In this document: positions 22,878 through 23,228 of the stretch, one piece after another | Numbering within the stretch: position 1 is the first letter of the stretch | Layout: every line of letters begins with the position of its first letter | Assembly (NCBI GenBank): GCA_902791035.1 | Contig: CADAUA010000001.1 | Coordinates: forward strand, 186,001 to 250,000 | Source of the DNA: an uncultured Coriobacteriaceae bacterium | GTDB taxonomy: Bacteria > Actinomycetota > Coriobacteriia > Coriobacteriales > Atopobiaceae | Direction of reading: 5' to 3' | Length of the DNA: 64,000 bases | Translations under genes and position numbers: made by a program | The notes under the pieces: generated by a model | What the model was told of the DNA's origin: nothing | The model's input: the letters and a program-made list of their open reading frames with translations, nothing else | The model's database searches: none

Positions 22878-23132
22878 TCAAGACTTCAAACATAGGGGGA
22901 AACATAGGGGGTACTCCCCCGTGTTTCCCGTGTTTGAAACATAGGGGGTACTCCCCCGTGTTTCCACGATGTCGGAGGCGGCGCGCAGGACGTCCGGCTC
23001 CACGGCATCGGAGCTCGTGACCTCGTGCGGCATGCGGTGGAAGCCCACGCCCTTGCCGAAGACAACCACCTCGCCCCCCTGGGAGTCGGTCCCCAGGGCC
23101 ACGTTGTTGTTGATCTTCTTGGTTAGGTGCAT
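22878..23132 (-). pseudogene. Truncated BglG/LicT-family antiterminator (RNA-binding domain only)
   Basis: Residues 1 to about 55 (MHLTKKINNNVALGTDSQGG, then EVVVFGKGVGFHRMPHEV) match the co-antiterminator RNA-binding domain of LicT/BglG, with the conserved NNN and FGKGVGF segments. The two PRD regulatory domains (about 220 residues) are gone; after about 22967 the frame runs into the palindromic repeat and stops at 22878. ATG 23132 has GGGGGGA upstream. For SacY and LicT, isolated N-terminal domains of this size are known to be constitutively active antiterminators, so the remnant could still act on the GH1 genes. Alternatively it is simply decayed. Confidence 0.7.
22889..22966. repeat. GGGGTACTCCCC palindromic element, copy D (direct duplication)
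   Basis: The unit AAACATAGGGGGTACTCCCC.. occurs twice in the same orientation (from about 22901 and 22938), preceded by a half-unit AAACATAGGGGG at 22889. It lies between the BglG-type fragment and the GH1 start and has replaced the rest of the antiterminator reading frame. Confidence 0.8.
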
Positions 23133-23187
23133 AAAAAATCCCCCCGACGGCGCTAGCGCAGGAACAAGCCGAATGATGTTCAACCGC

Positions 23188-23228
23188 GCAAGTAATGCCT
23201 CCGAGGGTCCACGGAGTAACAACCTTGC
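23188..23228 (-). promoter_or_regulatory. RAT-like antiterminator RNA element
   Basis: Read on the minus strand, GCAAG-GTTGTTA-CTCCG, an eight-base loop, then CGGAG-GCATTA-CTTGC folds into two stems (GCAAG/CTTGC and CTCCG/CGGAG) with internal loops. TTGTTACT and GGCA match the ribonucleic antiterminator consensus bound by BglG-family proteins. It lies about 55 bases upstream of the antiterminator fragment. The following sequence ends in ATTTTTT just before the start codon, which might be a terminator tail. Confidence 0.5.

Follow-up and report, generated by a model that had tools for sequence, protein, structure and literature searches.

The bgl/lic-type operons, namely, E. coli bglGFB, B. 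subtilis licT-bglPH, and S. mutans licT-bglP, are the known counterparts of the locus described here. The isolated CAT RNA-binding domains of SacY and LicT are constitutively active; a paper demonstrating this activity was not found in our literature search. By title or abstract opening, the literature searched, which covered few subscription papers, held no truncated BglG relic with its ribonucleic antiterminator (RAT) kept. In the window, that is, the whole 64,000-nucleotide stretch of DNA analyzed, a truncated bglG gene (hereafter the stump) is located behind a RAT and followed by genes for a GH1 enzyme and a PTS EIIA (Table 1).

Table 1. Positions of the features of the locus and of two further elements of the window.
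Feature	Position	Strand	Remarks
Possible extended -10 (TGCTAAAGT)	23235-23243	(-)	just upstream of RAT, by eye; weak
RAT	23188-23228	(-)	match of covariance model R1, E 3.1e-11
Intrinsic terminator	23133-23207	(-)	from folds; overlaps 3' half of RAT
Stump ORF	22878-23132	(-)	84 codons
BglG codons 1-45, CAT RNA-binding domain strands 1-3	22998-23132	(-)	PF03123 and alignments
12 codons (PDVLRAASDIVE), start of PRD1	22962-22997	(-)	alignment with L105-L107
Stump ORF tail, not BglG-like	22878-22961	(-)	reads through palindromes to stop
Palindrome copy 1 (GAAACACGGGGGAGTACCCCCTATGTTTC), 29 nt	22936-22964	(-)	inside stump ORF tail
Palindrome copy 2, 29 nt	22899-22927	(-)	identical to copy 1; inside stump ORF tail
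GH1, 6-phospho-beta-glucosidase-like	21386-22861	(-)	intact, 491 aa; PF00232 E 1.4e-121
PTS EIIA (glucose-type)	20746-21264	(-)	intact, 172 aa; PF00358 E 2.2e-40
Second GH1	13202-14641	(-)	52% protein identity to first; adjoins RpiR-family regulator gene
FMN riboswitch	29044-29182	(+)	96.3 bits; ordinary; membrane-protein ORF and ABC transporter genes behind it (names by eye)

What is left of the BglG protein

The stump ORF matches the profile PF03123 (E 1.2e-11; 44.7 bits, cut-off 25) over positions 1-45 of 57. Comparison between the stump and its full-length relatives revealed that (i) residues 1-45 aligned without gaps; (ii) 18 codons were absent in frame, which correspond to residues 46-63 of the relatives and comprise strand 4 and the linker; (iii) 12 PRD1 residues followed, which aligned with DNVLLAASDIVD of the relative G050 and form part of PRD1 helix 1; and (iv) the reading frame then entered the palindromes. 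The protein parts kept at the locus are 61-70% identical to those of G050 and G036. Phe48, found in every other row of the 15-sequence alignment (A3), is replaced by V in the stump. Compared with proteins of the BglG/SacY type, the stump lacks a complete CAT RNA-binding domain and two PRD domains, and a PRD profile search had no match at this locus. The sequence-only reading of the window, which stated that the RNA-binding domain remains, was thus right about a CAT homologue but not about a whole domain; its statement that a palindromic repeat replaces the PRD domains agrees with the 2 palindrome copies found in their place. AlphaFold2 models of the stump (pLDDT 65.3, pTM 0.43) and of the domain of an intact relative (72.3, 0.54) were both weak; in these low-confidence models, a strand spans residues 44-46 of the stump and residues 44-49 of the relative, with pLDDT values over residues 41-50 of 53 and 70, respectively.

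The dN/dS ratio of the first 44 codons was 0.24 against the nearest relative (G050), 0.50 against G036, and 0.19 against G052, and it ranged from 0.10 to 0.71 in the 15 pairwise comparisons of six intact relatives; no prolonged neutral drift is visible. The family-invariant residues are kept in codons 1-44. These codons, few as 44 are, therefore look constrained, which suggests that the loss was recent or that some function persists. The kept core motifs of the RNA-binding domain and their apparent constraint, together with the intact cognate RAT and the in-frame junction, could be read as signs of a PRD-free, constitutively active antiterminator that holds the RAT open and keeps GH1-EIIA always on. 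We regard such an antiterminator as very unlikely, because strand 4 and the near-invariant Phe48 are missing, as is the linker, whereas the CAT domain, according to its description in PMC3369936, is and works as a homodimer of four-stranded sheets. The predicted burial of the Shine-Dalgarno sequence of the stump in an arm of the terminator (described below) also argues against it. The absence of strand 4 rules out a constitutive RNA-binding domain as the leading view.

Broken bglG genes were also observed in relatives, at L175 (G046), L191/L205, and L190 (G051); the defects are frameshifts downstream of an intact RAT, an in-frame stop at about codon 118, and a truncation early in the gene. A fourth match to the stump in its own genome (C1:202736) covered the palindrome-encoded tail alone and was dropped.

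The attenuator and its possible regulators

A covariance model (R1) was built from the RATs of nine relatives, with the window RAT left out; 22 of the 44 alignment columns of this RAT core are invariant. In the whole window genome, the sole match of R1 at E <= 1 was the RAT of the stump (53.1 bits), and the double stem described earlier as RAT-like in the stump's own leader is thus a genuine RAT. Its parts are the lower stem GCAAG/CTTGC, UGU/GCA, a UA bulge, and CUC/GAG, and its apical stem is longer than those of the relatives. Across 140 genomes of the family, R1 had 18 matches in 13 genomes, with a BglG homologue directly behind 12 of them (that of the window included) and none directly behind the other 6. 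In an alignment of 15 RATs, 99.4% of cells were paired and 2 lower-stem pairs had changed on both sides; the upper helix is invariant across these RATs and therefore provides neutral evidence. An Rfam search of the locus returned no RAT-type match, and by E-value it returned just three microRNA families, which lay on the palindromes with scores far under the gathering scores. A TTGTTACT..GGCA pattern at C7:87869, considered as a further RAT, found no support from the covariance model. A sigma-70 consensus scan of 22700-23450 had no match; therefore, the possible -10 element upstream of the RAT is graded weak.

The folds predict that the terminator and the RAT are mutually exclusive, and the leader thereby shows the sequence, double-stem structure, and overlapping terminator of a RAT/terminator attenuator. 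The terminator is closed by a T6 run directly abutting the stump ATG, and the stump has no Shine-Dalgarno candidate other than the terminator 3' arm, GGGGGG (23140-23145). Eleven leaders were folded, namely, those of the window (23133-23146), L105-L110, L112-L114, and L175. In all of them, 0-7 nt separate the terminator U-run from the bglG ATG downstream, and the only Shine-Dalgarno candidate is the terminator 3' arm, predicted to be paired. In this bacterial family, the arrangement points to a common control of transcription and translation: the attenuator could additionally mask the translation start, and the binding of BglG would free both processes.

The predicted RAT hairpin is more stable in the window (-14.3 kcal/mol) than in the nine relatives (-6.5 to -10.4 kcal/mol), and the preference for the terminator over the RAT is the smallest of 11 leaders compared (5.5 vs 6.6-19.3 kcal/mol). 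Both values would suit a longer RAT hairpin that forms without protein and frees GH1-EIIA from induction. However, the terminator still wins in the predicted fold of the window leader and takes over from the RAT 10 nt ahead of the leader end, as for L105 and L106, and the extra loop bases of the window RAT also pair within the terminator. Read-through by RNA alone is therefore hardly to be expected.

The genome contains two other full-length BglG genes, on contigs C6 and C5. The C6 module consists of an EIIBC-BglG pair alone, with no EIIA or GH1 beside it, and RATs without bglG exist in relatives, such as the RAT before GH1 in G036 (L174). The orphan RAT could accordingly be worked in trans by the C6 or C5 BglG, by which GH1-EIIA would have joined another sugar regulon. 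We consider such a takeover distinctly improbable: the C6 operon leader has its own RAT-like element with a different core (TTGTAATCCC..GGGAGCAA, by eye; a similar one is found in G018), which makes cross-talk with the window RAT doubtful, R1 found no other RAT like that of the window, and PMC7430163 reports specificity barriers among BglG paralogues.

By eye, variant RAT-like leaders (TTGTAATCCC..GGGAGCA) precede EIIBC-BglG pairs at about 5080-5160 of L168 (the C6 module itself) and at about 1415-1490 of L139, and they possibly indicate a second specificity class of BglG proteins. RATs of the window family without bglG behind them were observed at L174, L183, L187, L188, and L189; besides the GH1 of G036, what follows them is a gene for an esterase-like secreted protein in G050 and G051 (judged by eye), and in G018 the RAT is flanked by EIIA on one side and a second GH1 on the other.

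The ancestral operon, the junction, and the downstream genes

When 12 regions surrounding the BglG matches of relatives were compared, the order BglG-EIIBC-GH1-EIIA was seen at eight loci of seven genomes (L134, L135, L137, L138, L139, L140, L141, and L142); among the other four regions, one is interrupted by a contig end, one is without GH1, one is without a visible EIIA, and one is reordered. The check proposed earlier, to look for an intact antiterminator and EIIBC at the corresponding locus in relatives, thus came out positive. PRD1 codon 75 and GH1 are 2216 nt apart in G050 and 2271 nt apart in G036, compared with 100 nt in the window. Since the relatives keep RAT-bglG-EIIBC-GH1-EIIA, the locus in the window is missing PRD1, PRD2, and EIIBC (about 2.1 kb). 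These parts were not found elsewhere in the assembly: its 13 EIIC matches include no close homologue of the EIIBC (the best is 45% identical to the G036 EIIBC and sits in another BglG operon), and its 6 PRD matches include no orphan PRD of the stump gene, the two intact BglG genes accounting for four and ORFs of 708 and 924 aa for the other two. Measured against bgl-type PTS operons, the locus lacks a linked EIIBC(A) transporter and has a linked phospho-beta-glucosidase, the GH1, whose place downstream of the stump had been recognized from the sequence; the absence of EIIBC and the EIIA gene behind GH1 had been overlooked in that reading.

At the junction lies a palindrome pair of a dispersed family. 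Searched at <=3 mismatches, AAACACGGGGGAGTACCCCC had 84 matches in the genome and its reversed control pattern had 0. A shorter palindrome pattern occurred in 7 of the 140 family genomes, with 81 places in the window genome, 35 in G074, and 1-4 in five others, and was absent from the seven relatives with the whole operon. Judged by sequence, the palindromes are a lineage-specific, REP-like family; the genus is represented in the genome set compared by the window genome alone. The window carries palindromes at 16750-16818, 18246-18311, 20633-20710, 22899-22964, 37616, and 57708-57755, mostly paired, and G074 has a related family with AATCAAGGGGGAGTACCCC. With about 80 near-identical copies in an assembly of 37 contigs, two loci might have been misjoined through these repeats; we hold such an artefact to be highly unlikely, given that the junction repeats span <80 bp, that the missing EIIBC or PRDs are on no contig, and that the 18-codon loss is located outside the palindromes.

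A tree built from 28 GH1 proteins groups the window GH1 with L024 and L025 (support 100/99) and then with L026-L030 (100/98), and it places the operon GH1 genes of G050, G036, G057, and G018 as the sister group with weaker support (93/95). No BglG or EIIBC was found within 5 kb upstream of the GH1 genes of L024-L030; CAT_RBD occurs in 2 of the 6 genomes that carry them, in neither case in the DNA examined around those genes. Because the window GH1 groups with stand-alone genes, a simple deletion may be an incomplete account of the locus. Either the GH1 genes of this subclade moved out of the operon in the other genomes, or the window operon exchanged its original GH1 for a stand-alone one. The latter event, in which a stand-alone GH1 took the place of EIIBC and the original GH1 beside the stump and the junction carries palindromes, is possible but rather unlikely. 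Against it, the EIIA behind the window GH1 is, among the homologues compared, nearest to the operon EIIA (69% identical to that of G050 and 66% to that of G036, compared with 57-58% for the best in the L024 genome), and the contigs of L024 and L025 end just after or inside GH1, leaving their downstream side unseen. A consensus promoter scan found no internal promoter before GH1. By eye, the 121 nt that separate GH1 from EIIA (21265-21385) contain a hairpin rich in G+C and a TACAAT box, suggesting that EIIA may have its own promoter.

Decay of the operon and comparison with known systems

We consider the locus likely to be a decayed beta-glucoside PTS operon, in which the stump is a relic and the attenuator in front of GH1-EIIA has been orphaned. 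The ancestor was RAT/terminator-bglG-EIIBC-GH1-EIIA. As comparison with the relatives shows, the segment from PRD1 of bglG through EIIBC has been lost in this lineage, and the palindromes may have caused this deletion; the second, in-frame loss of 18 codons took strand 4 of the RNA-binding domain. The remaining ORF is most likely non-functional. The attenuator, presumably intact as an RNA but without its cognate protein and sugar sensor, should terminate by default, and GH1 and EIIA would then depend on leakage of the terminator, an unrecognized promoter, or another BglG. The locus looks like ordinary gene decay rather than a new always-on regulator. The sequence-only reading had proposed a change from inducible to constitutive by truncation; a complete RAT-bglG-PTS-GH1 operon was indeed truncated, but the constitutive switch finds no support, given the missing strand 4 and Phe48 and the terminator, still the lower-energy fold by 5.5 kcal/mol. 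That a mini-antiterminator without strand 4 and PRDs, or the longer RAT hairpin alone, keeps the attenuator open, such that an inducible operon became a constant one after the loss of its transporter and sensor, is improbable. As a decayed operon, the locus provides a clear snapshot of a PTS operon disintegrating, with the protein and transporter gone and the RNA switch and enzyme left. It also lends itself as a natural experiment on the fate of an orphan RAT/terminator, which could silence its operon, leak, or come under the control of a paralogue.

The palindromes resemble REP/BIME-like repeats in being short, mostly paired, and dispersed in about 80 copies, and differ from them in the core GGGGGAGTACCCCC. 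With the intact operons of the family (G050, G036, and others), the locus shares the RAT core and the gene order, and it differs from them in the loss of about 2.1 kb and in the palindromes at the junction. With the bgl/lic-type operons, it shares a RAT overlapping a terminator, a BglG-type RNA-binding domain, a GH1, and a PTS component; by contrast, it is without PRD1, PRD2, CAT strand 4, and EIIBC, and its terminator abuts the start codon.
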